Positions 1-56,743 of a stretch of 64,000 bases of DNA are shown piece by piece (position 1 is the stretch's first letter; the number at the start of each line of letters is the position of its first letter). The position numbers and the translations under genes are program-made. Origin of the DNA: Ignavibacteriota bacterium (GTDB lineage: Bacteria > Bacteroidota > Ignavibacteria > UBA10030 > BY39); NCBI GenBank assembly GCA_003327435.1, contig QOQV01000010.1, positions 1-64,000 on the forward strand, written 5' to 3'. The notes under the pieces were generated by a model. That model had not been told where the DNA came from. It searched no databases and was given only the letters and a program-made list of their open reading frames with translations.

Positions 1-3000
1 GGTATGTCTGGAGTAGCTGGACTAATGCTTCCGGTTTGACATCGGTTGTTGCACCGCTTGTGAACACAACTTACACTGCAAACTTCACAACTCAATATTA
101 TCTAACGATGCAGGCAAATCCTGGTGGCAGTGTTACGCCACAGAGTGGCTGGTATAACAGAGCTCAACAGGTTACTATTACGGCTATTCCGGATGCAAAA
201 TATCGCTTCACTACATGGAGTGGGACTGGGACTGGTTCCTATAGTGGTTCTTCCAACCCTGCTACGGTTACCATCAACTCTCCTATCAGACAAATTGCCA
301 ACTTTACAAGAAATCCAGTGCTAATAACAATAGGTACTGAACCAGATGGAAGATCTTTCATCTATGATGGGTTCACATATACATCCTTACAAACTCGTTC
401 GGTTGAGCCTGGTTCACAACATACGATTTCTGTACAATCACCGCAACCTGATATAAATCCTGATAAACAGTATATTTGGTGGTATTGGAGCGACGGAGGA
501 GCACAGACCCATAACATCTATCCGATGACAGACTCTAACTTTACAGCATTTTTCAAAACACAATATGCAATCACTATAAACACGACTAATTCTACTGCAG
601 GTAGTGTGGAACCTTCTGGCAGAAAATTTTATACTGAGGGCGACACTTTACAGATAACAGCACGTGCGAATAAAGGATACATATTTACTGGATGGAGTGG
701 ATCAATAAACTCTACAAATAATCCAATTAATATTATAGTTGACAGTTCGAAGACCATCTATGCGAATTTTGCAGAAGCTGCTGAAATCACATTCAAAACC
801 CAACCTGAAAGTTTGAATATATTAATCAACAACACGAATTATAGAACACCTGTTAAAATAAATTTCTTAAAAGGTTCATCACATAATTTAAGTACTATAT
901 CTCCACAATACGATAGCACCGGTAAGATAAAATATGAATGGAACTCCTGGAGTGATTCTGGTGACATATCTCACAATATAACTTTCACAAAAGATTCCAC
1001 TATAATAGCAAATTTCTTAACTTATTATTATCTAATGGTTGTTGCGAATCAGGGGGGGGAAGTTGATATTCAGAGTGGTTGGCAATTAAAAGATACAACC
1101 ATTACATTAACCGCTATTCCTGATTCTGGATATCTCTTCAACGAATGGATTGGAACGGGTGAAGGCTCATATTCCGGAAATAATAATCCAACCACAGTAT
1201 TGATGAAATCTCCTATTACACAAATAGCTAATTTCAGTAAAATATTACCACCTCCGATATTAACTGGAATACCCGATAGAGCGAGCGATATTCCCACAAA
1301 TCCAAATCTAAGATGGCAATCGTATCCAGGTGCTACATATTATATTCTGCAGGTTTCAACTGATTCCACATTTTCAGATACAGGTAAACTGATAATTTCT
1401 TTGCAAACCACTGATACTACATACCAATTAAACAATCTGGTAAATCTTATTACATATTTCTGGAGAGTAAGAGCTAAAGTTGGAAACGATATAACCACAT
1501 TTTCTGCGATAAGACGGTTCACGACCATTAATGCTACTATTGTTGTACAAACGCCACTAATGAATTGGGCGTCAGGTTATAAGTACCAGATAAATTGGAC
1601 ATCAAACAACTTGAGCGGAAAAGTAAATATTGTTTTATACACCGACTCGATGCAAAAAAGAATTATATTAAAAGATAACTACGATAATAATGGTATGTTT
1701 AATTATGTGGTTCATGATTCTATTCTACAAGGTAAATTAAAAGTCGATTATTGTAAGATAAGAATTGAATCATATTTAAATAATATCGTTTATGGCGAAA
1801 GTGGAAACTTTTCAATAGTTTCCGGCACACTACCACAAAGTGTTAGATTAAGCACTCAAATACAATTCCCGCAAGAAGCTTTAAGTTCAACTTATTATCG
1901 TCTTGTTAGTTTACCGGGCATTGTTGACACAATTAAAATTGGTAATTTTATCAGTGGTAAACAAAAATTCGACTGGAGAATTTTCTCAGATAACGGAAAT
2001 CCAGATAATTTCCTTGAGGAACTATCAACAAGCGCCTCATTAAAAACTGGACAGGGATATTGGTTTATCAAAAACGGGAATCTCACAATAACAGACTTTG
2101 AGATGAGAATGCCTAAACTTGATAGCACAGCTACATTTACAATAAATCTCAACCCTGGCTGGAATATAATCGCAAATCCTTTCGACAAAACTATAACCTG
2201 GGCATCTATCTTACACTCAAATAATTTACAATTTTCTACAATATTATATGCCTATGATGGTTCATACAAATCTACTCTAACGCTCGAACCATTTAGAGGA
2301 TATTACTTCTTTAATACTAATAATTTAGCAAAACTTAAAATTCCATATCCATTTGGTTGGTTAGGTCAACAAAAAGTTACAGAGGACATCGTCTGGCAAT
2401 TACAATTAATTTATGAAACGAATGGTATTATAGATTCCAACAACTATTTAGGAGTCGCCAAGCATACCTCGTTTGATATTGATAATTACGATCAACACAA
2501 ACCTCCAATGTTTAAAGATCAAGCATATCTTTACTTTGAACAAAAAGATATTAATTCAAAATACAATAAATTTGCAACTGATTTTCGCCCTGACCTTGGT
2601 GAAGGTCAAAAATGGCAATTCATGATTACGAATCCACAGAAACAAATTTCAAGGTTGATTTTTAACAATATCGAACAGTTGCCAAATGAATACGAGATCT
2701 TTTTAGTAAATCCAAATCGAACAAAGCCAATTAACCTAAGACAGACTAATGAATTTATTTTTGATCCAACTTCAGACATAAACAAATTTGAATTAATTGT
2801 TGGCACAGTGTCATTTATTCAGAGAGAATTGCAGAAACTTATTCCAGAAAAATTTGAACTCTCACAAAATTATCCAAATCCTTTTAACAGTACAACTACG
2901 ATTCATCTAAAATTACCGGAATCAGGATATGTGGAAATGGACATATATAATTCAATTGGACAAAAAATTATCACATTAATTCAAAAGCAATTAGAAGCCG

Positions 3001-3128
3001 GCTCTTACACATATAATTGGAACGGCACAGATAATAACAAAAATGCTGTCTCATCAGGTATTTATTTCTACAGAGTTAAAATTGATGGGATAGTAAAAGA
3101 TACTAAAAAAATGATAATCATTAAATAG
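1..3128 (+). CDS. T9SS-exported repeat-rich surface protein, 5' truncated
   Basis: The reading frame is open from base 3, so the gene begins before the window; the TTG at 36 is only the first possible start codon inside it. Numbered from that TTG, the visible protein alternates two repeat types of about 70-80 residues. Type A, resembling divergent InlB B-repeats ('W.G.G.GSYSG..NP'), is at about 21-90, 177-245 and 331-400. Type B is at about 95-173 and 249-327. A fibronectin-III-like segment follows (about 405-500), and the last 85 residues form a T9SS type A sorting domain ('NYPNPFN', 'YNSIGQKI', 'SSGIYFYRVK'). It is probably a cell-surface or secreted adhesin-like protein; the ligand is unknown. 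Bases 121-300 are clearly GC-richer (48% by hand count) than the rest of the gene, and a run of eight G lies in the third A repeat. Confidence 0.85.
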   Translation, partial: YVWSSWTNASGLTSVVAPLVNTTYTANFTTQYYLTMQANPGGSVTPQSGWYNRAQQVTITAIPDAKYRFTTWSGTGTGSYSGSSNPATVTINSPIRQIANFTRNPVLITIGTEPDGRSFIYDGFTYTSLQTRSVEPGSQHTISVQSPQPDINPDKQYIWWYWSDGGAQTHNIYPMTDSNFTAFFKTQYAITINTTNSTAGSVEPSGRKFYTEGDTLQITARANKGYIFTGWSGSINSTNNPINIIVDSSKTIYANFAEAAEITFKTQPESLNILINNTNYRTPVKINFLKGSSHNLSTISPQYDSTGKIKYEWNSWSDSGDISHNITFTKDSTIIANFLTYYYLMVVANQGGEVDIQSGWQLKDTTITLTAIPDSGYLFNEWIGTGEGSYSGNNNPTTVLMKSPITQIANFSKILPPPILTGIPDRASDIPTNPNLRWQSYPGATYYILQVSTDSTFSDTGKLIISLQTTDTTYQLNNLVNLITYFWRVRAKVGNDITTFSAIRRFTTINATIVVQTPLMNWASGYKYQINWTSNNLSGKVNIVLYTDSMQKRIILKDNYDNNGMFNYVVHDSILQGKLKVDYCKIRIESYLNNIVYGESGNFSIVSGTLPQSVRLSTQIQFPQEALSSTYYRLVSLPGIVDTIKIGNFISGKQKFDWRIFSDNGNPDNFLEELSTSASLKTGQGYWFIKNGNLTITDFEMRMPKLDSTATFTINLNPGWNIIANPFDKTITWASILHSNNLQFSTILYAYDGSYKSTLTLEPFRGYYFFNTNNLAKLKIPYPFGWLGQQKVTEDIVWQLQLIYETNGIIDSNNYLGVAKHTSFDIDNYDQHKPPMFKDQAYLYFEQKDINSKYNKFATDFRPDLGEGQKWQFMITNPQKQISRLIFNNIEQLPNEYEIFLVNPNRTKPINLRQTNEFIFDPTSDINKFELIVGTVSFIQRELQKLIPEKFELSQNYPNPFNSTTTIHLKLPESGYVEMDIYNSIGQKIITLIQKQLEAGSYTYNWNGTDNNKNAVSSGIYFYRVKIDGIVKDTKKMIIIK
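1052..1059 (+). repeat. G8 homopolymer inside surface-protein gene
   Basis: Eight consecutive G residues lie in codons for Gln-Gly-Gly-Glu of the third type A repeat. The matching Gly-Gly in the first repeat is encoded GGT GGC, so the run is not forced by the protein. Poly-G runs are rare in this AT-rich window. Slippage here would frameshift the gene before its secretion tail. Phase variation is an inference. Confidence 0.6.
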
Positions 3129-3136
3129 GTGAAATT

Positions 3137-3661
3137 ATGATATTCAAATATATATCAAATAACTTAAAATGGTTCAAAAACATCCTTATAGTATTTCTAT
3201 TCAATACTTTGCTAATTGAGCCGATATTTGCACAAAGTGCAGATGAAAATGTTCTGATCCAGAATGTAAAATGGGTTATTAAGAGCGAAGTTATTATCAT
3301 CAATTACGATTTGGTAGGTTCATTAAAAGATCAATATGAAATTAAAGTGGTAATGAAAAAACAAGATGATCCTGATTTCCAATTTATCCCACGTGCTGTA
3401 GAGGGTGATATAGGAATTGGTTACTTTGCTGGTTTGAAAAAAGAAATTACCTGGTATTATAGAAGAGATATTCCCCAGGGAATAACAGCAGATGAAAAAT
3501 ATTACTTTATTGTCAATGTAAAGGAAATTAAAAGTTCAAAATCCTGGATTTATTATTTAGTTGGTGGAGTTTTAGCGACTGGAGCAGCTATAATATTATT
3601 GAGCAGTAAATCTAAGGAACAGGGGCAAAAAGAACTTCCACTGCCGCCAGGTAGACCATAA
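3137..3661 (+). CDS. Exported small protein with beta-sandwich-like domain and C-terminal membrane segment
   Basis: This 174-residue protein has an N-terminal signal sequence (hydrophobic 'ILIVFLFNTLLIEPIFAQ', cleavage after about residue 33). A domain of about 90 residues follows, of the kind 'IINYDLVGSLKDQYEIKV..VEGDIGIGYFAGLKKEITW'. Similar Ig-like domains are common in exported Bacteroidota/Ignavibacteria proteins, sometimes ahead of formylglycine-enzyme-like modules. It ends with one transmembrane helix (about 137-155) and a short, proline-rich tail. It starts 8 bases after the T9SS protein stop and is probably co-transcribed with it. The function is not recognised; a membrane-anchored accessory of the upstream surface protein is possible but unsupported. 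Confidence 0.75.
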   Translation: MIFKYISNNLKWFKNILIVFLFNTLLIEPIFAQSADENVLIQNVKWVIKSEVIIINYDLVGSLKDQYEIKVVMKKQDDPDFQFIPRAVEGDIGIGYFAGLKKEITWYYRRDIPQGITADEKYYFIVNVKEIKSSKSWIYYLVGGVLATGAAIILLSSKSKEQGQKELPLPPGRP

Positions 3662-3674
3662 ATTGGAGAGAATT

Positions 3675-4658
3675 ATGAAATTTTCGAGAGATGTACTGAA
3701 GATAAACGAACAAGAAGAAATCGAAAAAATAACAACAACGATCAGAACACAGGTGTTTTCTGAACTACATAGAAAGGGTGCAGTGTTAGGTCTCTCAGGT
3801 GGAATTGATAGTTCTGTCTGTGCAGCACTATGTGTTAAAGCACTTGGAGCTGAAAATGTATTTGCTATTCTAATGCCTGAAAAAGATTCGTCTCAAGAAA
3901 GTATTGAACTTGGTAAATTAGTAGCTGATTCCCTAAACATAAATTATGAAATTAATGACATTACTAATCTTTTACAAGCAAGTGGTTGCTACAAATTCCA
4001 GGTTGAAGCAATAAGAGAAATAATTCCTGAGTATGGTGAAGATTGGAAATGTAAAGTCATAATACCATCAATTTTGGATAAGGACAGATTAAATATATTC
4101 CATATAACTGTTCAATCTCCAGATGGTAAAATGCAAACAAGGCGGTTTACACCAACAAGTTACCTTAAACTAATTGCAGCAACTAACTGGAAACAAAGAA
4201 TTCGAAAATGTATTGAATATTATCATGCAGATCGATTATACTATGCTGTATGTGGAACACCAAACAGACTAGAATATGATCAGGGTTTTTTTGTTAAGAA
4301 TGGTGACGGAAGCGCTGATTTTAAACCAATCGCTCACCTGTATAAATCTCAGGTTTATATGCTTGCAAAAGCTCTAGGATTACCCGAAAAAATAATTCAT
4401 CGGCCACCTACAACCGATACATTTTCACTCGCTCAAACGCAGGAAGAATTCTTTTTTGCAGTGTCTTACGAAATAATGGACTTGTGCCTTTATGCATACA
4501 ATCATAATATTGAACCAAAATTTGTTGCCTCTGAAATCAATTTAACAGAGGAACAGGTGAAAAGAATTTATAAAGATATAGAATCAAAAAGAAAAGCAAC
4601 AAGATATTTACACATGAAACCACTTTTAGTAGAAAAAATTTTAAATCCAGAATTATAA
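3675..4658 (+). CDS. nadE: NAD(+) synthase (NadE) family ATP-pyrophosphatase, possibly a divergent paralogue
   Basis: The start is the ATG at 3675, preceded by TTGGAGAG; the longer frame would need the TTG at 3663, inside that Shine-Dalgarno. The 327-residue protein has the adenylating P-loop SGGIDSS (41-47) and NadE-type blocks 'GTPNRLE' (194-200), 'GDGSADFKPI' (210-219), 'LYKSQV' and 'RPPTTDTF'. NH3-dependent NadE amidates deamido-NAD+ after adenylation. Two features differ from the family norm of about 245-280 residues: an insertion at about 105-167, and 'QTQEEFF' where the 'QTDEDELG'-like block normally lies. The next gene encodes a glutamine amidotransferase and the one after an acyl carrier protein, so it may act on another carboxylate. 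The family is certain; the substrate is not. Confidence 0.8.
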   Translation: MKFSRDVLKINEQEEIEKITTTIRTQVFSELHRKGAVLGLSGGIDSSVCAALCVKALGAENVFAILMPEKDSSQESIELGKLVADSLNINYEINDITNLLQASGCYKFQVEAIREIIPEYGEDWKCKVIIPSILDKDRLNIFHITVQSPDGKMQTRRFTPTSYLKLIAATNWKQRIRKCIEYYHADRLYYAVCGTPNRLEYDQGFFVKNGDGSADFKPIAHLYKSQVYMLAKALGLPEKIIHRPPTTDTFSLAQTQEEFFFAVSYEIMDLCLYAYNHNIEPKFVASEINLTEEQVKRIYKDIESKRKATRYLHMKPLLVEKILNPEL

Positions 4659-4663
4659 ATGAT

Positions 4664-6685
4664 ATGTGTGGGATAGCGGGAAAAATAGACTTTTCCGATA
4701 AGGCTGAGCCAGTTTCAATCGAATTTCTAAAAAATATGGTGAGTACTCTAAGGCATCGTGGTCCTGATGAATTTGGATACTACAGAGACAACAATGCAGG
4801 ATTAGTTCATGCTCGCCTTTCAATTATCGATATTACAAGTGGACAACAACCAATGTCCAATGAAAATAATACACTCTGGATCGTTTTTAATGGAGAAATT
4901 TTTAATTATTTAGAACTCAGAAAGATTTTGCAAAATCATAACCACAAATTTAAAACTAAATCCGACACAGAAGTGATTCTTCATGCTTATGAACAATGGG
5001 GTCTGGATTGTTTTACAAAATTCAACGGTCAGTGGGCAATTGCCATGTGGGATAATCAGAATAAAAAACTCATTTTTTCGCGTGACCATGTTGGAATACT
5101 TCCTCTATTTATTAAGGAGGAAAATAATACAATATGGTTTGCAAGCGAAATCAAGGCAATATTTACTGATCCAGAAGTTAAACGAGAAATTGACATTTTC
5201 GCTTTACAACAGATATTTACATTCTGGACTACAATTACCCCTTATACGACTTTTTCAGGAATATTCGAAATTAAACCGGGCACAACAGTGGTTTATTCTG
5301 CTAACGGAAAGAAACAAGAACACATACATTGGAAACTAAATTTTCAAGATCCATCGAATACTTCGACAACAAAAAACAAATATTCATTCAAAGATGCAGC
5401 AAAAGAATTAGAACAGAAATTACTTGATGCAACTAAACTGAGAATGTTAAGGGCAGATGTACCCGTAGGAAGCTATCTATCAGGTGGACTGGATAGTTCT
5501 GTTGTTGCCTGGATGGGAAGGCAAACCAAATCTGGCACCTTCCAAACTTTTTCCATCAGATTCGAAGACCAACAGTTCGATGAAACCAGATATCAAAAAA
5601 TGTTAGTATCGATGCTGAATAGCAATCATGAAGAAATCCTTGTAAAGAAAAGAGATATAAGTCAGGTATTTCAGGAGGTAATTTATCATACCGAAAAGCC
5701 CATTTTAAGAGCAGCACCAGCTCCATTATTTATTTTATCGAAACTTGTTCACGATTCTAATTTCAAAGCTGTTGTTACTGGTGAGGGCGCAGACGAATTC
5801 CTCTTAGGTTATGATATTTTCAGGGAAACTAAAATCCGCCAATTTATGTCAAATCAACCTGAATCCAGAATTAGACCTCTTTTACTACAACGGCTTTATC
5901 CTTATCTTACAGATTCATTATTTAAAGCAAAAGGTGCATCTTTCGAGTTCTGGAAAAAAAATTTCACCGAGTTAAATCGAATTGACTACTCACATATATT
6001 AAGATGGGACACAACATCAAAAATAATAAATTTCTTGACAGATTCGATTCAGATGCATTTACAAGATGATCTAATGGAACTTGTAAGAGATATTTTACCG
6101 GAGAATTTTTTAAAACTAGATCCAGTTATCAGAGCACAGATTTTAGAAATAATGATACTATTTTCTGGTTATATCATATCATCTCAAGGAGATAGAATGT
6201 TAATGTCGCATTCAGTAGAAGGTAGATTTCCATTCCTTGATATTGATGTTATTAATTTTTTAAATCATTTACCAATTGATTACAAACTTATAGGCTTAGA
6301 CGAAAAAATTATCCTAAAACACATCGCTAAAGGCAAAATTCCTGATGAGATTATAAATAGAAAAAAACAACCATATAGAGCCCCTGATGCTGCAAGCTTT
6401 ATATTTGACAAACCAGAAGATTATGTGACGGAAATGTTCTCTGAAAAAATATTAAAAGATTTTGCTATATTCAATCCAGAGAAAGTAAGCATATTGTACA
6501 ATAAATGTTTGAACAAAATTTCTAACAATCCTGATGGTTCACAAATAAGCAATTTTGAAAATATGAGCTTTGTTGGAATATTATCAACACAATTATTGTA
6601 TTACATGTTCATAAAGAATAAACCCAGATATAATAATAACATTAATTTCACAACTAAAATAGATATGGTTAAAGAAAATGCATAA
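4664..6685 (+). CDS. asnB: Asparagine synthase (glutamine-hydrolysing) family amidotransferase
   Basis: The protein starts MCGIAG, giving the Cys2 nucleophile of a class II (Ntn) glutaminase domain; 'RHRGPDEFG', 'RLSIID' and 'FNGEIFNY' are the usual glutaminase blocks. The synthetase half has the P-loop SGGLDSS at residues 273-279 and 'GEGADEFLLGYD'. At 673 residues it is longer than housekeeping AsnB (about 555) and nearer the forms found in polysaccharide and natural-product clusters. It lies 5 bases after the NadE-like gene and overlaps the acyl carrier protein gene by 8 bases, so it is probably in the same operon. The reaction is ATP-dependent amidation of a carboxylate with Gln-derived ammonia; aspartate is the default substrate, but the neighbours suggest a specialised one. 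Confidence 0.85.
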   Translation: MCGIAGKIDFSDKAEPVSIEFLKNMVSTLRHRGPDEFGYYRDNNAGLVHARLSIIDITSGQQPMSNENNTLWIVFNGEIFNYLELRKILQNHNHKFKTKSDTEVILHAYEQWGLDCFTKFNGQWAIAMWDNQNKKLIFSRDHVGILPLFIKEENNTIWFASEIKAIFTDPEVKREIDIFALQQIFTFWTTITPYTTFSGIFEIKPGTTVVYSANGKKQEHIHWKLNFQDPSNTSTTKNKYSFKDAAKELEQKLLDATKLRMLRADVPVGSYLSGGLDSSVVAWMGRQTKSGTFQTFSIRFEDQQFDETRYQKMLVSMLNSNHEEILVKKRDISQVFQEVIYHTEKPILRAAPAPLFILSKLVHDSNFKAVVTGEGADEFLLGYDIFRETKIRQFMSNQPESRIRPLLLQRLYPYLTDSLFKAKGASFEFWKKNFTELNRIDYSHILRWDTTSKIINFLTDSIQMHLQDDLMELVRDILPENFLKLDPVIRAQILEIMILFSGYIISSQGDRMLMSHSVEGRFPFLDIDVINFLNHLPIDYKLIGLDEKIILKHIAKGKIPDEIINRKKQPYRAPDAASFIFDKPEDYVTEMFSEKILKDFAIFNPEKVSILYNKCLNKISNNPDGSQISNFENMSFVGILSTQLLYYMFIKNKPRYNNNINFTTKIDMVKENA

Positions 6686-6938
6686 AGAAGAAATTACCCT
6701 GATTGTTTCCAATTACATTAAAAAGAATTTCTTGTTTGATGAGAAAAAGGAAGTTGATAACGACATTTCTCTTTATCAAAGTGGAATAATTGATTCAATG
6801 GGAACAATTGAATTAATTTCCTTTTTAGAGAATACATATAAAATCCGCTTTGATGATGATGAGCTTATTGCTGAAAATTTCGATTCAATAAATGCTATAT
6901 CAAATTTTTTATATAATAAACTGCAGAACATCAAATAG
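6678..6938 (+). CDS. Acyl carrier protein
   Basis: An 86-residue acyl carrier protein: helix I, then 'GIIDSMGTIELI' with Ser40 as the phosphopantetheine attachment site (DSMG in place of the common DSLG), then acidic helices II-III. It starts inside the end of the AsnB-type gene (8-base overlap), implying translational coupling. Its own 3' end overlaps by 8 bases the 3' end of the convergent acyl-ligase gene. It is not next to fab genes, so it is probably a dedicated carrier for an acyl or aminoacyl group used by this cluster and not the fatty-acid synthase ACP. Confidence 0.85.
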   Translation: MHKEEITLIVSNYIKKNFLFDEKKEVDNDISLYQSGIIDSMGTIELISFLENTYKIRFDDDELIAENFDSINAISNFLYNKLQNIK

Positions 6939-8454
6939 CCTGACTATTTAAAAACATTTCCTTTAATTTTATCCGATCTGGTTTACCAGTAGTTGTTTGA
7001 GGAATCTGGTTGACAACCCAAATTTTACCTGGAACCATATACGGTGGCATAACCTCCTTGCAATATGCTAAGAGTTCGTTTTCTATAAAACCTTGATGCG
7101 ACTTTGGCATTACCGCCGCCACTATGATATCTTCAACACCTTCAGAGGGAACTGTAAAAACAACTGCATGAGAAACTTGATTCGATTGAAAGATATATTC
7201 TTCCACTTCTTCAGGACTTATTCTAAAACCGCTAATTTTGAACATCTGATCTTTCCTGCCTATATAATACAAATCTCCATCCTCATCATATTTCACAGAA
7301 TCGCCTGAAAATACGACTTTTTCTAAATAGTTTCCATCATATCGCGGAATTGAAATTGTTTTAAATCTCTCTTCAGTACTCTTTTCATCTCTCCAGTATC
7401 CGAGTGAAACACAGGCACCTCTGTGAACCAATTCACCAACCTCGCCTGGTTTGCAAATTTCTCCCTTTTCATTTAAAACCATAATTTCCACATTTGGAAT
7501 TGCTTTGCCGATTGAGTTTGGTTTAAGATCAATTTTCGATGGATCAAGATAAGTTGAACGAAATGCCTCTGTTAATCCATACATCAAATAAATTTTCAAA
7601 TTTGGATGCACCCTCCTGAACAACCTTGTAATATATTCAGGCATTCTACCACCAGAATTTGTTATGTATCTTAAGCTTGGAAAATTCTTTTTTATGAATG
7701 GAGAGCGTTCTTGTGCAAGTTGCTGCCATAGCAATGGCACTCCTGCCATCCCAGTTACATTTTCTTTTAATATCGTATTGCATATATCCGCTGGAAATAC
7801 AGAATTTTGCAATACAATCTTTCCCCCTACCAAAATTGTTGTCAGCAATTGATTTAATCCATAATCAAAACTAAAAGGGAGTAAACTTATAATGATATCG
7901 TCTTTTGTCAGTTGCAAATAATCCGAAACTATTATAGCACCAGAAAGCAAATTTGTATGACTTAACATTACACCTTTTGGCATTCCTGTTGAACCAGAAG
8001 TATAAATAATTAAAGCTAAGTCATTACCAATAATATTGATTCTTTCCGAATATTCGTTATTGAACTCTTCCCTATCTATATTTAATATTTTATCTTTTTC
8101 AAAACTGAGCGCACCGGCATTCTTTAAAGCCGTATCATTAGTAATCAACATTGAAGCTTGAGAGTGGTTAAGAATATACTCTACCTGATTTTTTTTCAAT
8201 ACCTCGTTGATAATTACTGCAACGCCACCATTCAACCATACAGCAAATAACGATGCTATCAGGTCTAATGATTTTTTTAAATAGATACCTACTCTATCAC
8301 CTCTTTCTATACCATTAGATCTTAAAGTGTAGCGATACAAATATATTTTATGCTTGAGAGTTTTAAAATCAACTCTGATATCTCCATCAACAATAATCTC
8401 TTTTGTTTCTGGGATGTTTTTATTATATATCAAATCGCATAATGTATACAACAT
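6931..8454 (-). CDS. AMP-dependent acyl-CoA/acyl-ACP ligase (ANL superfamily)
   Basis: A 507-residue ANL enzyme. It has the P-loop-like motif 'YTSGSTGMPKG', the core motif 'YLMYGLTEAFRSTYL', the hinge 'GRKDQMFKISGFRISP' and the C-terminal catalytic Lys in 'QTTTGKPDR'. It would adenylate a carboxylic acid and load it on CoA or, given the ACP gene that converges on it, on that carrier. The start is an ATG with AAGGAGC just upstream. It lies 15 bases downstream of the GNAT-like gene on the same strand. Similar ligases occur in exosortase-associated and other surface-polymer loci; the substrate cannot be read from the sequence. Confidence 0.85.
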   Translation of the reverse strand: MLYTLCDLIYNKNIPETKEIIVDGDIRVDFKTLKHKIYLYRYTLRSNGIERGDRVGIYLKKSLDLIASLFAVWLNGGVAVIINEVLKKNQVEYILNHSQASMLITNDTALKNAGALSFEKDKILNIDREEFNNEYSERINIIGNDLALIIYTSGSTGMPKGVMLSHTNLLSGAIIVSDYLQLTKDDIIISLLPFSFDYGLNQLLTTILVGGKIVLQNSVFPADICNTILKENVTGMAGVPLLWQQLAQERSPFIKKNFPSLRYITNSGGRMPEYITRLFRRVHPNLKIYLMYGLTEAFRSTYLDPSKIDLKPNSIGKAIPNVEIMVLNEKGEICKPGEVGELVHRGACVSLGYWRDEKSTEERFKTISIPRYDGNYLEKVVFSGDSVKYDEDGDLYYIGRKDQMFKISGFRISPEEVEEYIFQSNQVSHAVVFTVPSEGVEDIIVAAVMPKSHQGFIENELLAYCKEVMPPYMVPGKIWVVNQIPQTTTGKPDRIKLKEMFLNSQAI

Positions 8455-8469
8455 ATAAAAGCTCCTTTT

Positions 8470-9540
8470 TTAGAAAAACCACAGGTCGCCTTCTAAACGA
8501 GTGAAAAACGCTCTATTTGAATGTAAAGCATCGATAATTTCTTTTCTTCTTGAATGAGCCAGCATCCAATTTCTTCCTGGCATAAAAAAACATCTACGGT
8601 CAAAGAATGTTCTCATAAATTCTGGATCTAATCTACCAATCAATTCAATAGCACCTTTACACCAGGCATGATAAAATAATGCATTGATTACCGTTTCTAT
8701 AGTTTGGTCATCAGCAACAATTTGCAAGACATTACTTGAACCATTTTTTAGTAAATTATACAAAAACCACCCCATCACTATACCTTCTTTGTTAAGAACT
8801 ACAATTTTCTGAAATTCTCCAAATCTCTTTTCATTTTTCAATCTTTCAAATAACCACAGCAACGATTTAGAATCATAGACAGGTTTCAATGATTTATGCT
8901 CATAAAATCTATTTAAGTTTATCAGAAAATCATTTACCTCCAATTCTTTTAGTTCAAAATTATTTAATCCAAATTTTTGTTGTGAAAAAGATGGTCTGGA
9001 TAAAATATAATCAGCAATTTTAAAAATACTTCTAATTGGTAAAAACACTCTTGCATTATAAAGCTTTGGTTTTGTCATCAAAAGAGCAAAGCTAATTGGT
9101 TTTAAAGGCTTACGCCAGTATATACTGTGTAGGTAAATTGTTTCACCTCCCAGCCTTTCCCATAAAGGTCTACCAACATCCACAGCCATATCAGTAATGG
9201 AAAGATCCTGGGGTCCAGCGAAAAACTCCTTAAAAAGTTGAAGACTTGCCAACGGAACCTTATCAACCATAAGATGTTGACCAACCCCTATTAGTATATC
9301 TTTACCCTCAAAATGAAATTTTCTGGGCACAACTCCCAAAAATCCCTTAATTTTTCCATTAGAATCTTCGTAAACTAAGGATCTGACTTCTTCATTATAC
9401 CAAGGATTATTAAAACAAACTTCTTTAAAAATTTCATATTGAACTTCTCGCGACAAATCTTTACTCCTCACAAAAGATTTGATATTCAGGTCTATAACCT
9501 GTTCAATGTCTTCTAATTCAAATTTTCTCACTCTACCCAT
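8470..9540 (-). CDS. GNAT-like N-acyltransferase
   Basis: A 356-residue protein whose N-terminal part follows the GNAT pattern ('FELEDIEQVIDLNIKSF', then 'GKIKGFLGVVPRKF' and 'VGQHLMVD'); the remainder reads as a second, weaker acyltransferase-like half. It would move an acyl group from CoA or ACP to an amine. It lies between hypE (46 bases upstream, no terminator seen) and the acyl ligase (15 bases downstream), so it is probably transcribed with both. I see no good Shine-Dalgarno. The coupling with ligase and ACP suggests N-acylation with a ligase-activated acid; that is inference. Confidence 0.65.
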   Translation of the reverse strand: MGRVRKFELEDIEQVIDLNIKSFVRSKDLSREVQYEIFKEVCFNNPWYNEEVRSLVYEDSNGKIKGFLGVVPRKFHFEGKDILIGVGQHLMVDKVPLASLQLFKEFFAGPQDLSITDMAVDVGRPLWERLGGETIYLHSIYWRKPLKPISFALLMTKPKLYNARVFLPIRSIFKIADYILSRPSFSQQKFGLNNFELKELEVNDFLINLNRFYEHKSLKPVYDSKSLLWLFERLKNEKRFGEFQKIVVLNKEGIVMGWFLYNLLKNGSSNVLQIVADDQTIETVINALFYHAWCKGAIELIGRLDPEFMRTFFDRRCFFMPGRNWMLAHSRRKEIIDALHSNRAFFTRLEGDLWFF

Positions 9541-9586: not shown

Positions 9587-10651
9587 TTAACATATCCTTG
9601 GTAATTGTTCACCAGATATCATATCTACAATTCTATTGCTTCCAATAATGGTTTTCATTATAACTGTTTTTTTGTGATTAGCAACCACCTTACCGATAAT
9701 CTGAGCATCTTTACCTAATGGATCTGATTGAATTATTGCTAAAACTTTTTCTGATTCTTGAGGATCAACAAATGCTATAAATTTACCTTCGTTAGCCACA
9801 TATAGCGGATCAAATCCAAGAATTTCACATGCTCCTCTGACCTGTTCATCAATTGGTATCTTTTCTTCATATATTTCAATTCCAACATCAGCAATTGAGG
9901 CGATTTCGTTCAATGTACTTGCAACGCCACCTCTTGTTGGATCTCGCAAGACATGAATTTTATCTGAATTCTTTATCAATTTCTCTATGATATGGTTTAA
10001 TGGTGCTGTATCACTTTGTATGGAGGTTTCAAAATTTAGACCACTTCGAGCAGACATAATCGCAATACCATGTTCAGCAATTTTACCACTTATTATAATA
10101 TCATCACCAACTTTACAATTTAATGGAGAAATTTCAGCAACTATCTTTCCAACACCAGTTGTATTAATAAAGATCTTATCTGCTTTACCGTGTTCAACAA
10201 CTTTTGTATCACCTGTTACAATTTTTACACCGGATCTCTCTGCTGCTTTTTTTATGGACAATATAATTTTCCATAAATCTGCTACTTTTAATCCCTCTTC
10301 TAAAACAAAGCCAAGAGAAATAAAAAGGGGTTTAGCACCACACATTGCAAGGTCGTTTACAGTACCATAAACAGCGAGTTCACCAATATCACCACCCGGG
10401 AAAAATATTGGTTGTACCACATAAGTGTCTGTTGAAAAAGCAATTTTATTACTATCAATTTCCAATATCGCACCATCGTGCTGTAGATTCAAGTATTGAT
10501 TATCAAACTGACTCAAAAACATTTTTTGAATCAGTTGATGCATTAAAGTTCCTCCACCACCATGAGCAATCGTAATGGTATCATATTCGGAGATTGGAAT
10601 TGGACAGCTCAGATTAAAATCTCTTTCATTAATAGTTTGTTTGTCTTCCAT
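9587..10651 (-). CDS. hypE: Hydrogenase maturation protein HypE
   Basis: The 354-residue protein has the glycine-rich start 'TIAHGGGGTLMHQLI', the PurM-like ATP-binding fold ('STDTYVVQPIFFPGGDIG', 'TGDTKVVEHGK', 'RDPTRGGVAS') and ends in PRIC. The C-terminal Cys is the residue carbamoylated by HypF and dehydrated to thiocyanate, the source of the CN ligands of the NiFe active site. It follows hypD by 5 bases in the order hypF-hypC-hypD-hypE. The length is normal. No hydrogenase structural genes are in the window. Confidence 0.97.
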   Translation of the reverse strand: MEDKQTINERDFNLSCPIPISEYDTITIAHGGGGTLMHQLIQKMFLSQFDNQYLNLQHDGAILEIDSNKIAFSTDTYVVQPIFFPGGDIGELAVYGTVNDLAMCGAKPLFISLGFVLEEGLKVADLWKIILSIKKAAERSGVKIVTGDTKVVEHGKADKIFINTTGVGKIVAEISPLNCKVGDDIIISGKIAEHGIAIMSARSGLNFETSIQSDTAPLNHIIEKLIKNSDKIHVLRDPTRGGVASTLNEIASIADVGIEIYEEKIPIDEQVRGACEILGFDPLYVANEGKFIAFVDPQESEKVLAIIQSDPLGKDAQIIGKVVANHKKTVIMKTIIGSNRIVDMISGEQLPRIC

Positions 10652-10656
10652 AAATT

Positions 10657-11742
10657 TTAAATTTTTTTATAACGATAATAAGCTGCGCAAGCCCCCTCTG
10701 AAGAAACCATCGGTGCACCAAGCGGTGTTTCAGGTTTACAAATAGTGGCAAATGCATTACATTCAGTAGGTTTTTTTAAACCCTGTAATACTTCACCAGC
10801 AATACATAACTCTGATTCATTTCTGTTTAAATTTTGTAGTTGAAATTTTTTTTCAGCATCAAACATTTCCAATTCAGGTTTCAATTTTAACCCACTCATT
10901 GGTATTATACCAATACCACGCCATTGTCTATCTACAACATCAAATGTATCATTTAAAATTTTCTTCGCATGAATATTTCCTTCTTTTTTAACAGAGCGGG
11001 AGTATTGATTTTCTACAAAATACATTCCTGATTCTAATTGTTTTATTGCCATAAATATTCCCTCAAGAATATCAAGAGGTTCAAAGCCGGTAACAATAAT
11101 AGGAACCTTAAATTTTTCAGCTATGGGAATATATTCCTCATACCCCATAACTGTGCAGACATGCCCAGCTGCCAGAAATGCTTGAATTCTTGAATTATTT
11201 GAAGAAAGCAATGCCTTTATTGCTGGTGGAACAAGCACATGCGAGCAGATAATTGAAAAATTTTGAATGTTTCTGCGCTTTGCTTCGAGAACTGACATAG
11301 CGTTAGGAGGTGCGGTTGTCTCGAACCCAACAGCAAAGAAAACCACTTCCTTCGAGGGATTTTCCTCTGCAATTTTTAAAGCTTCTAAAGAAGAATATAC
11401 TATTCTTACATCTGCTCCTTTTGCTTTAACACTTAATAAATCATATTCTGAACCAGGAACTCTTAACATATCTCCATAAGAAGTAAATACCACATTGTTC
11501 TGTGAGGCAATTGTAACTGCTTTATCAATCATTTCAAGCGGTGTAACACAAACAGGGCAACCAGGTCCATGAATAAGATTAATACTTTCTGGTAACAAAT
11601 CTTCAATACCGTACTTTAAGATGGTATGAGTTTGACCACCACAAATTTCCATTATGGTCCAATTGTGTTTCGCAAGCTTTTTAATTTCTTTCAACAATAC
11701 CTCAACAGCATTTCTATTGCGAAATTCATCTATATATTTCAT
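10657..11742 (-). CDS. hypD: Hydrogenase maturation protein HypD
   Basis: A 361-residue HypD. It carries '[20 protein letters not shown]', the cluster motif '[11 protein letters not shown]', 'AVGFETTAP' and '[12 protein letters not shown]', with further cysteines near the C-terminus ('CIAGEVLQG', '[15 protein letters not shown]'). HypD is the [4Fe-4S] scaffold that, with HypC, assembles Fe(CN)2CO for NiFe hydrogenase. Its ATG overlaps the hypC stop by 4 bases, so the partners are translationally coupled. Confidence 0.97.
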
Positions 11743-11993
11743 AATTCGTTTTGTTCTTCTCTATTTTGTGTTTCTTCTATCTGTTTAAAAAGCTTCAATG
11801 TCTCTTCAGCTTCCTTTTCATCTACAATACTCAATGCAAAACCCACATGTACAATCACATAATCACCGATTTTGGCTTCTGGTACCCATTCCAGACAAAC
11901 ATCCTTTACGATACCACTAAAACTCACTTTCCCCATAAGGGGTTGAGTATTATTTTGAATTTTTATAATTTTTCCAGGTATTGCTAAACACAT
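11739..11993 (-). CDS. hypC: HypC/HybG/HupF family hydrogenase maturation chaperone
   Basis: An 84-residue protein starting MCLAIPGKI. Cys2 is the iron-binding residue exposed after Met removal. The beta-barrel part ('[20 protein letters not shown]', '[13 protein letters not shown]') is typical, and a short charged tail follows. HypC carries the Fe(CN)2CO unit with HypD and hands it to the hydrogenase large subunit. It lies 10 bases after hypF and overlaps hypD by 4 bases. Confidence 0.96.
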
Positions 11994-12003
11994 ACTAATT
12001 TCC

Positions 12004-14289
12004 TTACAATTCTTTATTATAATTTTTAAGTGCTAAGTATGCCTGGCCTAATGCAATTCCACCGTCATTTGGTGGAATTCTCTGATGCCAGAATACTCTT
12101 CTACCATCCGTTTCTAACAATTTTATTGTTTCTTCCAATAATAAAACATTCTGGAAGCAACCACCACTCAATACAATTTTTTTCAGATCCTTTATTTCAG
12201 CAACCTTTTTTATTATTTTTGCCATTGTATTATGAAATTTTCTAGCAATAATTTCTTTCGGCTTTTTAGTCGAGTCGAAAATTAATTCTTCAATCATTTT
12301 TTTCCAATCAATTATGTATAAGCTCTCTTCTTTGATTGAGATTTCATAATAATCTGATGTATTTCCTTCTATTGCAGCATATTCAAGCATCATTGCCGCC
12401 TGACCCTCAAAAGCAGAAACATCTCTGATATTTAAGATTGATGCAACCGCATCAAAAATTCTACCTGCGCTCGTAGTAAGAGGTGAGTTAATTTTATTAA
12501 TCAACATATTTTTTATCAATCTAATTTCTTTATCTGAGAATTTTTCATTTATAAATTCTCGATAAATGTCGAAAACTTTTTCACCGTTAATTTCATACAG
12601 CATTCCCATAACAGCTCGTCTGGGTTCTCGAATTGCGATTTCACCACCAGGTAAAGGGAATTCTCGAAATGAAGCAACTCTTTCGAATTTTTTCAAATCC
12701 GTAACAAAAAATTCACCACCCCATATTTTACCATCCTCACCATACCCAGTTCCGTCCCATGCAACACCCAGAACTTCTCCTTCCAATTTATTTTCAGCAT
12801 AGCATGCAGCTATATGAGCTTTATGATGTTGTATTCTTATTGAATGAAATCCAGAATTTTGTGAATATTTTGTAGACAAATAATCAGGATGTAAATCACT
12901 AACATAAACTGGATTCTCTGAAGGATAGAGTTGCAGAAAATCCTGAGTAATTCTTGTAAATGCATTGTAAGATTCCTGAGTTGATAAATCTCCAATGTGC
13001 TGACTTATAAAAATGTTCTTGGAGTTGGTAAGTGCAATTGTGTTCTTTAAATGTGCACCAACAGCAATGAAAGTATTTTTATTTTCATCGAATTCATTTT
13101 CTATTGATATTGGCAATGGTGCATATCCTCTCGCTCTTCTTAATACCATTTCTCTATTTTTTACAATTCTAACAATTGAATCATCAACGTGACGAACAAT
13201 TGGACGATTATGCACAAGAAAATAATCAGCAATTCCTTTTAATCTCAGCAATGCTTCGCGTTCATCGATACACATTGGTTCTTCTGAAAGATTTCCACTT
13301 GTGGCAACAATTGGCTTATTCACCAATTTCATTAACAGATGATGAAGCGGAGTATATGGTAACATTATACCAAAATATGGATTATTGGGTGCCACCAAAT
13401 TTGAGATAATATCGTTTTCCCCTGATTTTCTTTTCAGTAAAACTATCGGTGCTTCCGGTGAAAGTAATGCCCTCTTTTCAAAATCAGATACATCACACAC
13501 TTCCATTACTCTTTGAACATCTGAAAACATCAAAGCAAAAGGTTTTTCTTCCCTTATCTTACGTCTGCGTAATTCGTTTAATGCCAAATCATTTGTTGCA
13601 TCGACGATGAGCTGAAAACCACCAAGTCCTTTTAAAGCAATAATTTTCCCTTTCAGAATCAGGTCTGCGGCTACTTCCAAAGACGAATTATATTTTTCTA
13701 ATAATTTTCCCTCAGCATCCCATAGTTCTAAGTGAGGGCCACAAACAGGACAGGCAATTGGTTGAGCATGAAATCTTCTATCTTCAGGATTTTCATACTC
13801 ACTTTTGCATTTATCACACATTTGAAAATTTTTCATAGAAGTATTTGGACGATCATAAGGTAGAGATTCGATAATGGAGAATCTTGTACCACAATTTGTA
13901 CAATTAATGAATGGATATAAATATCTTCTATCATTTACATCAAACAATTCATTAAGGCAATCATTGCAAACAGCAATATCTGGTAGGATTATAGCCGATT
14001 TTTCCTCATCGGAATCACTTTCTCTTATAGAAAACTCCTCATAACCAGATGGTTCTAAAAATGAAAATTCTAAGCTGTTAATGAAAGATCTTGGAGGTTT
14101 TTCCTTTTCAATCCTGAGGATAAACTCCTCTAATTTACATCTATCACCCTCTGCTTCAATAAACACACCTTTTGAAGAGTTAAAAACAAAACCCTTCAAA
14201 CCAATTTCTTTTGCGAGCCTGTAAATGAACGGTCTAAATCCAACGCCTTGAACAGCACCGCGAATTGATATATTTACACGAGATATCAT
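12004..14289 (-). CDS. hypF: Carbamoyltransferase HypF
   Basis: I chose the ATG at 14289 (MISRVNISIRG); the frame extends 12 codons further to a TTG, but the acylphosphatase domain begins right after this ATG. The protein has about 761 residues. In order it has acylphosphatase ('GAVQGVGFRPFIYRLA'), two Cys4 zinc fingers (CNDC...CTNC and CDKC...CPVC), a YrdC-like domain ('GLGGFQLIVDATN', 'ATSGNLSEEPM') and a Kae1-like domain ('HHKAHIAACYAE', 'WDGTGYGEDGKIWGGEF', 'LSGGCFQNVLL'). It makes carbamoyl-AMP and transfers the carbamoyl group to the HypE C-terminal Cys. It is first in the hypFCDE row. There is no Shine-Dalgarno, and the promoter ends 7 bases before the ATG. Confidence 0.96.
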   Translation of the reverse strand: MISRVNISIRGAVQGVGFRPFIYRLAKEIGLKGFVFNSSKGVFIEAEGDRCKLEEFILRIEKEKPPRSFINSLEFSFLEPSGYEEFSIRESDSDEEKSAIILPDIAVCNDCLNELFDVNDRRYLYPFINCTNCGTRFSIIESLPYDRPNTSMKNFQMCDKCKSEYENPEDRRFHAQPIACPVCGPHLELWDAEGKLLEKYNSSLEVAADLILKGKIIALKGLGGFQLIVDATNDLALNELRRRKIREEKPFALMFSDVQRVMEVCDVSDFEKRALLSPEAPIVLLKRKSGENDIISNLVAPNNPYFGIMLPYTPLHHLLMKLVNKPIVATSGNLSEEPMCIDEREALLRLKGIADYFLVHNRPIVRHVDDSIVRIVKNREMVLRRARGYAPLPISIENEFDENKNTFIAVGAHLKNTIALTNSKNIFISQHIGDLSTQESYNAFTRITQDFLQLYPSENPVYVSDLHPDYLSTKYSQNSGFHSIRIQHHKAHIAACYAENKLEGEVLGVAWDGTGYGEDGKIWGGEFFVTDLKKFERVASFREFPLPGGEIAIREPRRAVMGMLYEINGEKVFDIYREFINEKFSDKEIRLIKNMLINKINSPLTTSAGRIFDAVASILNIRDVSAFEGQAAMMLEYAAIEGNTSDYYEISIKEESLYIIDWKKMIEELIFDSTKKPKEIIARKFHNTMAKIIKKVAEIKDLKKIVLSGGCFQNVLLLEETIKLLETDGRRVFWHQRIPPNDGGIALGQAYLALKNYNKEL

Positions 14290-14319
14290 CGGTTTAAATA
14301 TAAAATATATACCGATGAT
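14285..14319. promoter_or_regulatory. Inverted repeat bracketing the hypF promoter, candidate operator
   Basis: ATCATCGGT (14285-14293) and ACCGATGAT (14311-14319) are perfect 9-base complements 17 bases apart; pairing resumes outside a one-base bulge (GAT/ATC). One arm covers the hypF start codon and the expected transcription start, the other the -35/spacer region. This suits a dimeric regulator controlling hydrogenase maturation genes. If transcription starts further upstream, the same arms would fold into a hairpin hiding the AUG. Confidence 0.45.
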
Positions 14320-14325
14320 TATCAA
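14297..14325 (-). promoter_or_regulatory. hypF promoter, possibly leaderless
   Basis: On the minus strand TTGATA (14325-14320), a 17-base spacer and TATATT (14302-14297) form a good sigma-70-type promoter. Only 7 bases (TAAACCG) separate the -10 box from the hypF ATG, so transcription should start at or one base from the start codon. Confidence 0.55.
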
Positions 14326-23885: not shown

Positions 23886-24917
23886 TCAGTTATTCAATAA
23901 TTTTAAATAAACATCCATCGTTTTCTTGCCCACATTTTCCCAAAGGAATTGTTCTTTAATAAAATTTTTGAGCTCATCAGATTTAGGTCTTGCAAGAGCG
24001 TTCTTTATACCCTCCACGATGGAATCAACAGAAAAAGGATCAACATAGTCAGCATAATTTTTAAAATACTCCTGTGTCCCGCCATATTTTGTTATCACGA
24101 TTTTAGCGCCAGCCAGTGCCGCTTCAAGTGCTGCGATACCGGGTGTTTCAAATAAGGATGGTAACACAAAAACATCGCAAGCAGCATAAGCTGATGCCAA
24201 TAATTCAGATTCATTCGGTAAATTATCAAGAAGCAATGTTCTTTGTGAACTATTTTTTCTAATTTTTTCATATTCTATACCTTTCTCGACCCTTCCAATA
24301 ATTACCGATGGAACATCAAAAGATTTTAGTGCCTGAACAAGCCGTAAAAGATTTTTTCTACCAGGTCCAATATGACCCACATTTAAAATAAAATTTTTAA
24401 GATTATAATGTTTTACAAATATTTCCGGATTTGCATTCAAAAATTTAGAATTTACCCCATTGGGAACCACGAAAATTTTTTCATCTGATATATTAAATCC
24501 TTTTTTAATTAACATCGCCTCACTATTTGTGTTTGGCAATATTGCATCAGCCCAACGGCACATATCAGATACTAAACGATAATCAATCCAGATACCTCTC
24601 AGTCTACTGAATATCAATCGGTCAAGAACCAATACATTCTTAATGAAAGAAGCAGAATGCGTTGAATAAAATATTGGAGACAGAACAATCTTTATTCCAA
24701 GCTTTGACATCTCTCTCATAAAATGATAGTTAGAAATTCCAGTACCAAAAATATGAAACAAATCATAGGATTTAGGATCAAATTTCTCCCACATATTATA
24801 AAGAGAGACTGAGACGCCGAGTTCTTCAAGAACACGTTTTGTTTCAAATATTTGAGTTTGCGGACCACCAGATAACAACCTTATTGCCTGATAGGATACA
24901 AAACACACTTTAATCAT
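23886..24917 (-). CDS. Glycosyltransferase family 4 protein
   Basis: A 343-residue GT-B glycosyltransferase. The C-terminal nucleotide-sugar site has 'NVGHIGPGRKNLLRLVQAL', 'VFVLPSLFETPGIAALE' and 'ITKYGGTQEYF'; the N-terminal 'LLSGGPQTQIFETKRVLEELG' is the usual GT4 opening. It is cytoplasmic or membrane-associated and adds a sugar to a lipid-linked glycan. It is the last of six genes in the minus-strand glycan block, with its start overlapping the deacetylase-like gene by 4 bases. Donor and acceptor are unknown. Confidence 0.88.
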   Translation of the reverse strand: MIKVCFVSYQAIRLLSGGPQTQIFETKRVLEELGVSVSLYNMWEKFDPKSYDLFHIFGTGISNYHFMREMSKLGIKIVLSPIFYSTHSASFIKNVLVLDRLIFSRLRGIWIDYRLVSDMCRWADAILPNTNSEAMLIKKGFNISDEKIFVVPNGVNSKFLNANPEIFVKHYNLKNFILNVGHIGPGRKNLLRLVQALKSFDVPSVIIGRVEKGIEYEKIRKNSSQRTLLLDNLPNESELLASAYAACDVFVLPSLFETPGIAALEAALAGAKIVITKYGGTQEYFKNYADYVDPFSVDSIVEGIKNALARPKSDELKNFIKEQFLWENVGKKTMDVYLKLLNN

Positions 24918-26437
24918 ATCATATCTTCCAATTTATTTATAATCTTCCAGATATTCATTTTATATATCTTATTAAAATCCCTTGGTAATTCTGAGGGTAC
25001 AGGTTTCATTTGCCATTTTAATTGACTGATATCATAAGAACCAGAATTGCTTATAAATGTCTCCTGGTTTTCTTTGTTAGTAATTCTCAAAGCACATTTA
25101 TTCGACTCTTTGAACTCTACTTCCAAGGATTTATTCTCAAACCTTGCTGAATAATCCACCTCTACTCTATTCTTCCACCATTTAGCATAACTTAAAAATG
25201 AATATGCAGGTATTTGAAGATTTTTTATTTTATTGAATAAATAATGAACTACTTCGATGTTCTCGTCATTTGGATGATGATAAAATATCAGAGGTTCTTG
25301 ATTATTAATTTTTTTCTGCGTTATCAGTTCAAAATATCGAATCATATCTGAAGCCGAATGCCCCTGACGTCTTAAACTACCTACACATATCGGATGAACC
25401 GGTATCTGCAAATTTTCATTTTCATCAAAACAGGGCAGATTGTCATAATCAAAACAAAACTCTGAAGAATATTCAAAATCAAAATCTTTTATTACATTCG
25501 AAATTTCCCTATTCCATTTTCCATACACAGCTGCAAAACCTTCCGGATAAATCTCATATTTATGTAAATACTCAATTGCAGTTGCTAAATCGGACATATA
25601 TTCTCCAGCATTTTTAAATTCTCTATGCTCAAAACAATGCAAAGCAAGCTCCTGATTTTGTATTTTAGTATAAAATTCCAGAATATCTTTCTGTGACTTT
25701 ACATCGATAAACCAGGTTATCGGTATATTGTGTTCTAAAGCCAACTGATAAAGGTCACTTATATTTTGAAATTTACCATAATCAGTATCGACTCTAAACA
25801 AGAAAACATTTTTTTCTGTAGCAGGAAAATACCATTTATGACAATATAATAAATTTTGCGAGTGGAATAAATATTCAAGAGAATTACTTACAATTTTGCG
25901 TACAGGCCCTTTAGATACTTTTGCAACTCTTTCGTGCGGTAAACGATTCTTGTATGAATAAAAAGATTTATGTTTATACGAATGGTCATCATATAAGCTT
26001 CCAGCATCAAATGGCAATAATATTACCTTCCCGTCACCATAATTCATCTCCGTTAAAGTAAATTCCCCAATGTTAGATTTCAAGTGCTCAGCGTAATCCA
26101 GGTAAACGATATTCCTCCACAAATCAATAAATTCACCAATATTAAAATACCCATCCCTATCAGTCAACAAAAATTTGACATATCTTTCTTTTAAATTTTT
26201 TACTGCATTATTTTGATAAAATTTTTTTGTTGAACAAAGTAATGAACCACCTGTTTCTACATACTTTTTTGCCTGAATTATATCATGATTGCTTGCCGAT
26301 TCTGATAGTACAATAACAGGGTATTGTAATAGCTGGTTAGTCGAGGTATCCACCAGCAGATCGAACTTAATTCCAATCTGTTTAAGAATCTGAACCCAAC
26401 CGTAACTCTTGCCAATCAAAGCGATTTTTAAGTCCAT
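24914..26437 (-). CDS. Polysaccharide-deacetylase-like protein with N-terminal amidotransferase-like domain
   Basis: A 507-residue protein without a signal peptide. Residues 1-140 ('VIVLSESASNHDIIQAKKYV', 'GGSLLCSTKKFY') look like a flavodoxin/class-I-amidotransferase-like fold lacking catalytic residues I can identify. Residues about 205-400 are a NodB-like TIM barrel with the metal motif 'FRVDTDYGKF', a His pair in 'LHCFEHREF', and 'FAAVYGKWNREIS'. A beta-rich C-terminal part follows. It probably removes an N- or O-acyl group from the glycan built by its neighbours. It overlaps the flippase gene by 10 bases and the GT4 gene by 4. Confidence 0.65.
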   Translation of the reverse strand: MDLKIALIGKSYGWVQILKQIGIKFDLLVDTSTNQLLQYPVIVLSESASNHDIIQAKKYVETGGSLLCSTKKFYQNNAVKNLKERYVKFLLTDRDGYFNIGEFIDLWRNIVYLDYAEHLKSNIGEFTLTEMNYGDGKVILLPFDAGSLYDDHSYKHKSFYSYKNRLPHERVAKVSKGPVRKIVSNSLEYLFHSQNLLYCHKWYFPATEKNVFLFRVDTDYGKFQNISDLYQLALEHNIPITWFIDVKSQKDILEFYTKIQNQELALHCFEHREFKNAGEYMSDLATAIEYLHKYEIYPEGFAAVYGKWNREISNVIKDFDFEYSSEFCFDYDNLPCFDENENLQIPVHPICVGSLRRQGHSASDMIRYFELITQKKINNQEPLIFYHHPNDENIEVVHYLFNKIKNLQIPAYSFLSYAKWWKNRVEVDYSARFENKSLEVEFKESNKCALRITNKENQETFISNSGSYDISQLKWQMKPVPSELPRDFNKIYKMNIWKIINKLEDMI

Positions 26438-29883: not shown

Positions 29884-29904
29884 TTATTTTATCGCCAGGA
29901 ATAT

Positions 29905-34509: not shown

Positions 34510-34512
34510 TTA

Positions 34513-53908: not shown

Positions 53909-53910
53909 AA

Positions 53911-56740: not shown

Positions 56741-56743
56741 GAT

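Follow-up and report, generated by a model that had tools for sequence, protein, structure and literature searches.

We analysed the first 64,000 nucleotides of contig QOQV01000010.1 from an Ignavibacteriota bacterium (assembly GCA_003327435.1; this whole stretch is referred to as the window) and describe in it a cassette of genes encoding a NadE-like protein (NadL), an AsnB-type amidotransferase, an acyl carrier protein (ACP) and an AMP-forming ligase of the ANL type, accompanied by a tandem-GNAT acyltransferase. The cassette is real and widespread, being spread over at least 10 bacterial phyla; its general kind (ANL ligase, carrier, amidotransferase and acyltransferase) is recognizable, its unusual member being an apparently repurposed NadE, and we found nothing relevant in the searchable literature on the combination of NadE, AsnB and ACP as a pathway. 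Our preferred reading, to which we assign a probability of roughly 0.45, is that the cassette produces an acyl, possibly aminoacyl, group bound to the carrier protein and adds it, together with one or two carboxamides, to an amino sugar of a glycan that either lies on the surface or anchors proteins.

The five genes, their strands, the 5-base gap between the NadL and AsnB genes, and the two 8-base overlaps (AsnB with ACP, and the convergent stop ends of ligase and ACP) are as reported in a preliminary description of this DNA made without database searches; the ligase and GNAT genes lie 15 bases apart, and the NadL gene starts at an ATG at 3675 behind a GGAGAG Shine-Dalgarno sequence, with an in-frame TTG at 3663. 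Family scans agree with that description on the NadE, AsnB, ACP and ANL ligase families, and the protein that it called GNAT-like, which matched no Pfam or NCBIfam family, adopts a tandem GNAT fold in an AlphaFold2 model (predicted local distance difference test score [pLDDT] 84.6, predicted template-modelling score 0.81). It had further suggested looking for a separate canonical nadE and for co-occurrence of the neighbouring genes in other genomes; both are present, as detailed below.

Named GTDB genomes contain at least 558 loci with the NadE-like subfamily. Going by their record titles, the best 80 come from Bacteroidota/Ignavibacteria, Myxococcota, Pseudomonadota, Planctomycetota, Acidobacteriota, Gemmatimonadota, Nitrospirota, Desulfobacterota, Armatimonadota, Spirochaetota and Rokubacteria, and the 47 among them with long flanks were used to count partners. 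AsnB was found at 45 of the 47 loci, the ligase at 46, the ACP at 41 and all three together at 41, whereas the same search around canonical nadE loci of the same order, our negative control, found each of the three at 0 of 16. The association is therefore far above chance, and this control leads us to reject a chance neighbourhood. Among 15 relatives, AsnB, ACP and ligase occur together at 13 loci. The divergence of NadL is correlated with that of AsnB (r = 0.76 over 41 loci, with none of 2,000 permutations as high), a correlation to which shared host descent contributes. The NadE-like gene is patchily distributed: of the 60 genomes from the order, 16 have it, and of the 296 from the phylum, 12.

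NadL scores 498 bits against NCBIfam NF002048 (PRK00876; cut-off 313), and its structural model (pLDDT 90.2) matches the NadE structures 2e18 and 1xng with target-normalized template-modelling scores of 0.83 to 0.87; an insertion of 50 to 60 residues, around residues 97 to 160, accounts for its extra length over the NadE core. We aligned it with 14 canonical NadE proteins from the same order, a sample that covers only some NadE types. ATP and Mg residues are common to both groups (the PP-loop SGGxDS, here SGGIDS, and Thr195, Glu200, Asp211, Lys224 and Thr246), and approximately 30 positions are near-invariant within each group yet differ between the groups. From canonical NadE to NadL, the P2 loop changes from PTADLW to PTTDTF and the substrate region from YGT to FFV and from CAxNPIGD to ADxKPIAH, with the aromatic Phe205 and Asp211 of that region retained; the region of the YGT and CAxNPIGD motifs holds the nicotinate end in other NadE enzymes (PMC6946656, together with general knowledge). 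The source genome (2.63 Mb, 98.6% complete) carries a canonical NadE on a separate contig (C15; 280 bits), so NadL is not needed for NAD and cannot be the only NadE of its genome; a canonical NadE is likewise present in all 16 NadL-bearing genomes of the order. With its ATP site intact and its substrate shell changed, NadL probably acts on a carboxylate other than the NAD precursor. Azospirillum brasilense is reported to express three NadE isoforms, two that depend on glutamine and a third that lacks the glutaminase domain (PMC7646526); a plasmid of this species carries the cassette, and we infer that the third isoform is its NadE-like protein.

The amidotransferase scores 481 bits against TIGR01536 (cut-off 267) and retains the motifs MCGIAG (with the glutaminase Cys2), SGGLDSS (PP-loop) and GEGADE; the cassette family has the signature RKKQP[YF]RAP where Escherichia coli AsnB has RQKEQFSDG. 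It is the only protein with an Asn_synthase domain in the source genome. Because an AsnA is encoded on contig C18 (356 bits), the supply of asparagine is presumably independent of the window AsnB, which weakens the case for it as the sole asparagine source.

The ACP is a divergent phosphopantetheine carrier (25.2 bits against PF00550, cut-off 20.8). Among relatives of solved structure, the best for the ACP are peptidyl and D-alanyl carriers, and the best for the window ligase are adenylation domains of nonribosomal peptide synthetases. Asp197 of the ligase aligns with the Asp235 of those domains, which binds the alpha-amine, and 51 of 78 cassette ligases have an Asp at this position. Taken together, the two sets of relatives and Asp197 are suggestive of an amine-bearing acid as the ligase substrate.

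Experimental data come from Sinorhizobium meliloti 1021, whose pSymB carries two other ACPs besides that of the cassette and a single PF00501 (AMP-binding) protein (1452018-1453106). According to the accessible part of PMC7232532, SMb20650, which has an AMP-binding motif, is co-transcribed on pSymB with the ACP SMb20651; because the only PF00501 protein of pSymB lies inside the cassette, these two are the cassette ligase and ACP. Expression of SMb20650 acylates holo-SMb20651 in vivo in E. coli (Ramos-Vega et al. 2009, as cited in the accessible part of PMC7232532). The corresponding part of PMC5686131, which also cites that study, lists the function of SMb20651 as open.

The window and a few relatives differ from the other loci in having a ligase of a different, XrtA-like type outside the operon. 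Outside the genus, ligases of the window type are 51% to 60% identical to each other and approximately 30% identical to the in-operon type (31% to 34% to the S. meliloti ligase). Because the loci with a ligase outside the operon have none within it, this reads as replacement of the relatives' in-operon ligase by the XrtA-like one. At one deltaproteobacterial locus (L137), two ACPs and both types of ligase lie beside a single NadE-like gene, a possible intermediate in such a replacement.

The tandem GNAT is a frequent but not an obligate partner: its family occurs at approximately 20 of 96 loci, in the Ignavibacteria relatives and, at 20% to 28% identity, in Alpha- and Betaproteobacteria, and some other loci have different GNAT or FemAB proteins. 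Its closest solved folds (Z of 18 to 20 over residues 1 to 352) are bacterial GNATs, Eis and N-myristoyltransferases.

Genes for glycans recur around the cassette. In Azospirillum ramasamyi and A. brasilense, the order runs from glycosyltransferases and a polysaccharide deacetylase through the ACP, ligase, AsnB and NadE-like genes to a GNAT. In Candidatus Manganitrophus the four cassette genes belong to an exopolysaccharide locus, where an XrtA-type polysaccharide deacetylase flanks them on one side and an exosortase on the other. Among 119 cassette neighbours sampled at random, glycosyltransferases, bacterial sugar transferases, FemAB-like Acetyltransf_6 proteins, DegT and exosortase were among the commonest families; the list of 25 families obtained from 119 canonical-nadE neighbours, which does not show rarer families, contains none of these. 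The commonest single extra neighbour was a PrmC/HemK-like methyltransferase (approximately 10 of 111 nearest neighbours, in several phyla: L051, L066, L088, L103, L108, L116, L140 and others); characterized members of the PrmC/HemK family methylate a carboxamide nitrogen. One family of VanZ-domain proteins recurs at four loci (L048, L049, L051 and L122).

We propose the following sequence of steps. The ANL ligase would adenylate a carboxylic acid, probably one bearing an amine, and attach it to the ACP through the phosphopantetheine (for the S. meliloti orthologues, this loading has been published). AsnB, with glutamine, would convert a carboxylate to a primary carboxamide, as its intact motifs and its uronamide-making relatives WbpS and WbqG suggest. 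NadL would adenylate a second carboxylate and amidate it with ammonia or an amine, and the tandem GNAT, judging by its neighbours, would hand the ACP-bound acyl group to a free amine on a sugar, exposed at some loci by a polysaccharide deacetylase. In the source organism, which has type IX secretion, the product may belong to the glycan that carries attached cargo proteins. We infer the substrates, the order of the steps, the transfer to sugar and the role of NadL from families, motifs and neighbours. The preliminary description had the five genes building or attaching an acylated or amidated group, and this is the best available reading, supported by ligase-to-carrier acylation in S. meliloti and by the recurrent polysaccharide genes; its product is putative, and the GNAT does not belong to it as a fixed member. 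A more specific version, in which a neofunctionalized NadE and AsnB amidate two carboxylates of a carrier-borne aminoacyl sugar decoration, so that a glycan of the surface, or one anchoring proteins, gains its amine or amide handle through a previously undescribed cross-phylum pathway, is tentative and less likely than not.

Several observations weigh against the glycan reading. In 27 of the 78 cassette ligases, Gly, Ser, Thr or other residues stand in place of the Asp, and the accessible part of PMC7232532 describes SMb20650 as a predicted fatty acyl ligase without naming the acyl group. Most loci have no polysaccharide genes nearby, neither the GNAT nor any deacetylase is universal, and the control for neighbouring families differs taxonomically from the NadL set. 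In the window itself, the glycosyltransferase and flippase genes at 23.9 to 29.9 kb lie at a distance of 14 kb, and any connection with the cassette is at most putative. Finally, 44 of 60 relatives with type IX secretion lack the NadE-like gene, which is therefore not a core function of that system.

A serious, if less probable, alternative to the glycan reading is that the product is a small molecule not joined to a glycan (an osmolyte, a signal or a natural product of the acyl- or aminoacyl-amide class), with the GNAT acylating a soluble amine. Many loci, including those of S. meliloti, Mesorhizobium and the window, have no adjoining glycan gene, sets of ANL ligase, carrier protein and amidotransferase typify small natural-product loci, and the closest solved relative of AsnB is a hydroxyamidotransferase; yet polysaccharide and exosortase loci recur around the cassette, its broad and patchy distribution is like that of surface polysaccharide genes, and among the nearest neighbours no exporter or tailoring gene recurs besides the methyltransferase.

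It is improbable that the genes form a module of the XrtA/PEP-CTERM type, with the function of the exosortase-associated ligase_PEP_1 and eps_aminotran_1 genes in a variant without exosortase. The ligase does reach 561.4 bits with TIGR03098 and AsnB 371.3 bits with the XrtA-associated TIGR03108, and the Manganitrophus cassette is inside an exosortase locus; both scores, however, are under the curated cut-offs (592.35 and 816.9), none of the TIGR families encountered corresponds to the NadE-like gene, and exosortase (TIGR04178) had no match in the source genome or, within the order, in any of the 16 genomes that have the cassette. An exosortase/archaeosortase-like protein of approximately 200 residues is present in 3 of the 60 relatives (G020, G028 and G032), all three of them lacking the NadE-like gene, and dependence of the cassette on exosortase is accordingly rejected.

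Slightly less credible still is that the ACP receives an ordinary fatty acid or hydroxy-fatty acid and that an acylated, amidated lipid results, with NadL still using a pyridine dinucleotide, or a nucleotide related to it, as its substrate. The resemblance of the tandem GNAT to N-myristoyltransferase and the retained Phe205 and Asp211 would fit this, but the ligase and ACP are closer to amino-acid-loading than to fatty-acid relatives, the changes in the substrate shell of NadL are many, and SMb20650 neither replaces FadD nor supports the use of oleate (PMC7232532, accessible part). The notion that housekeeping genes happen to be adjacent, namely those for an additional NAD synthase, for an asparagine synthase and for an ACP and ligase that serve fatty acids, can be set aside as scarcely credible, because, for all the TIGR01536 score of AsnB, the current annotation as NAD(+) synthase and the conserved ATP site of NadL, the partners keep company with NadL and not with canonical nadE, canonical NadE and AsnA are encoded elsewhere, the substrate shell is changed and the S. 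meliloti ligase does not substitute for FadD.

At the loci that we saw with annotation, the label NAD(+) synthase stands next to those of 'asparagine synthase', general ACP and adenylate-forming enzyme. Should the cassette be a single pathway, such labels are collectively misleading, they affect how NAD and asparagine metabolism is reconstructed for these genomes, and a modification of wide occurrence has been overlooked; the cassette also offers a role for the S. meliloti orphan ACP of the 2009 study.

The cassette and the genes immediately upstream of it are listed in Table 1. The first of these, a type IX cargo gene, is separated by 8 bases from the gene for a 174-residue protein, which is in turn 13 bases from the NadL gene, and it is probably the first gene of the plus-strand run of the cassette. 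Both genes also precede the cassette in the two relatives, both of the same family, where the order is visible (G001 and G003), the 174-residue protein having homologues there, in the same position, with 79% and 51% identity. The source genome has 93 Por_Secre_tail matches, and thus type IX secretion cargo.

Table 1. Positions in the window of the cassette genes and the two genes upstream
Feature	Position	Strand	Basis
InlB-like-repeat secreted protein with type IX secretion C-terminal tail	36..3128	+	Pfam Flg_new_2, FlgD_ig, Por_Secre_tail
Small putative secreted/membrane protein, 174 residues, without Pfam family	3137..3661	+	
NadE-like amide synthetase (putative; NadL, NF002048/PRK00876 subfamily), 327 residues	3675..4658	+	498 bits NF002048, fold, substrate shell
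AsnB-type glutamine-dependent amidotransferase, 673 residues	4664..6685	+	Asn_synthase and GATase domains; signature RKKQP[YF]RAP
Acyl/aminoacyl carrier protein (ACP), 86 residues, phosphopantetheine site Ser40 (DSM)	6678..6938	+	PF00550 25.2 bits
ANL (AMP-forming) ligase, 507 residues, near exosortase-associated ligase_PEP_1 family	6931..8454	-	AMP-binding 249 bits; TIGR03098 561 bits
Tandem-GNAT acyltransferase, 356 residues	8470..9540	-	AlphaFold2 model and fold search

Beyond the cassette, hydrogenase-maturation genes (hypE, hypD, hypC and hypF, named from reading the sequence) occupy 9587-14325 on the minus strand, 46 bases from the GNAT and ligase genes; this order is kept at a locus of the same genus (L046) and not in G003 (L045). 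A polysaccharide cluster on the minus strand (23886-32589, 14 kb from the cassette) encodes glycosyltransferases, a Wzx-like flippase, a GT9 protein and a TMEM260-like O-mannosyltransferase. Inclusion of its genes at 23.9 to 29.9 kb in the cassette is unsupported, and their retention in a genome of the same genus is uninformative because the whole stretch is colinear. Two neighbouring signal peptidases (Peptidase_S26; 33784-35412, minus strand) lie beside LepA, and a long plus-strand run (52922-57790) with genes for a MoxR-type AAA ATPase and VWA-domain proteins is unmatched in the compared stretch of G001, which may end before that region.

Four known systems invite comparison. NadL shares with NadE, the NH3-dependent NAD+ synthetase, the fold, the PP-loop and the ATP and Mg residues, and differs from it in the insertion, the altered P2 loop and substrate shell, the coexisting canonical enzyme and the constant partners; the accessible part of a survey of the NAD synthetase family (PMC3376133) reports no such gene context. 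The S. meliloti SMb20650-SMb20651 locus, like the window, brings together nadE-like, asnB, ACP and ANL ligase genes, there in the order asnB-ACP-ligase-nadE, its ligase being of the in-operon type. The XrtA/PEP-CTERM locus (TIGR03098, TIGR03108, TIGR03019 and TIGR03006) has a related ligase and amidotransferase and, in Manganitrophus, encloses a cassette, whereas the window proteins score below the cut-offs of its families, the source genome lacks exosortase and the NadE-like partner is additional; Haft 2006 (PMC1569441) makes no mention of the ligase, the amidotransferase or an ACP.

The fourth is the Wbp/Vim pathway of Porphyromonas gingivalis and Tannerella forsythia (PMC7468200). The sugar that links type IX cargo in P. 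gingivalis is 2-N-seryl-3-N-acetylglucuronamide, with VimE, WbpS and VimA as its proposed builders (PMC7468200); their activities, those of a deacetylase, an amidotransferase and a GNAT, are also the three that come together at some cassette loci. As in the cassette, an AsnB-family enzyme is at work there, forming the uronamide; the GNAT-type VimA adds an amino acid to the sugar amine exposed by the deacetylase VimE, and the product anchors type IX cargo. Carrier protein, ligase and NadE-like protein are not described for that pathway (PMC7468200), and the window cassette has no adjoining deacetylase. By this analogy, the cassette looks like a carrier-dependent version of the Wbp/Vim pathway with an extra amide synthetase.

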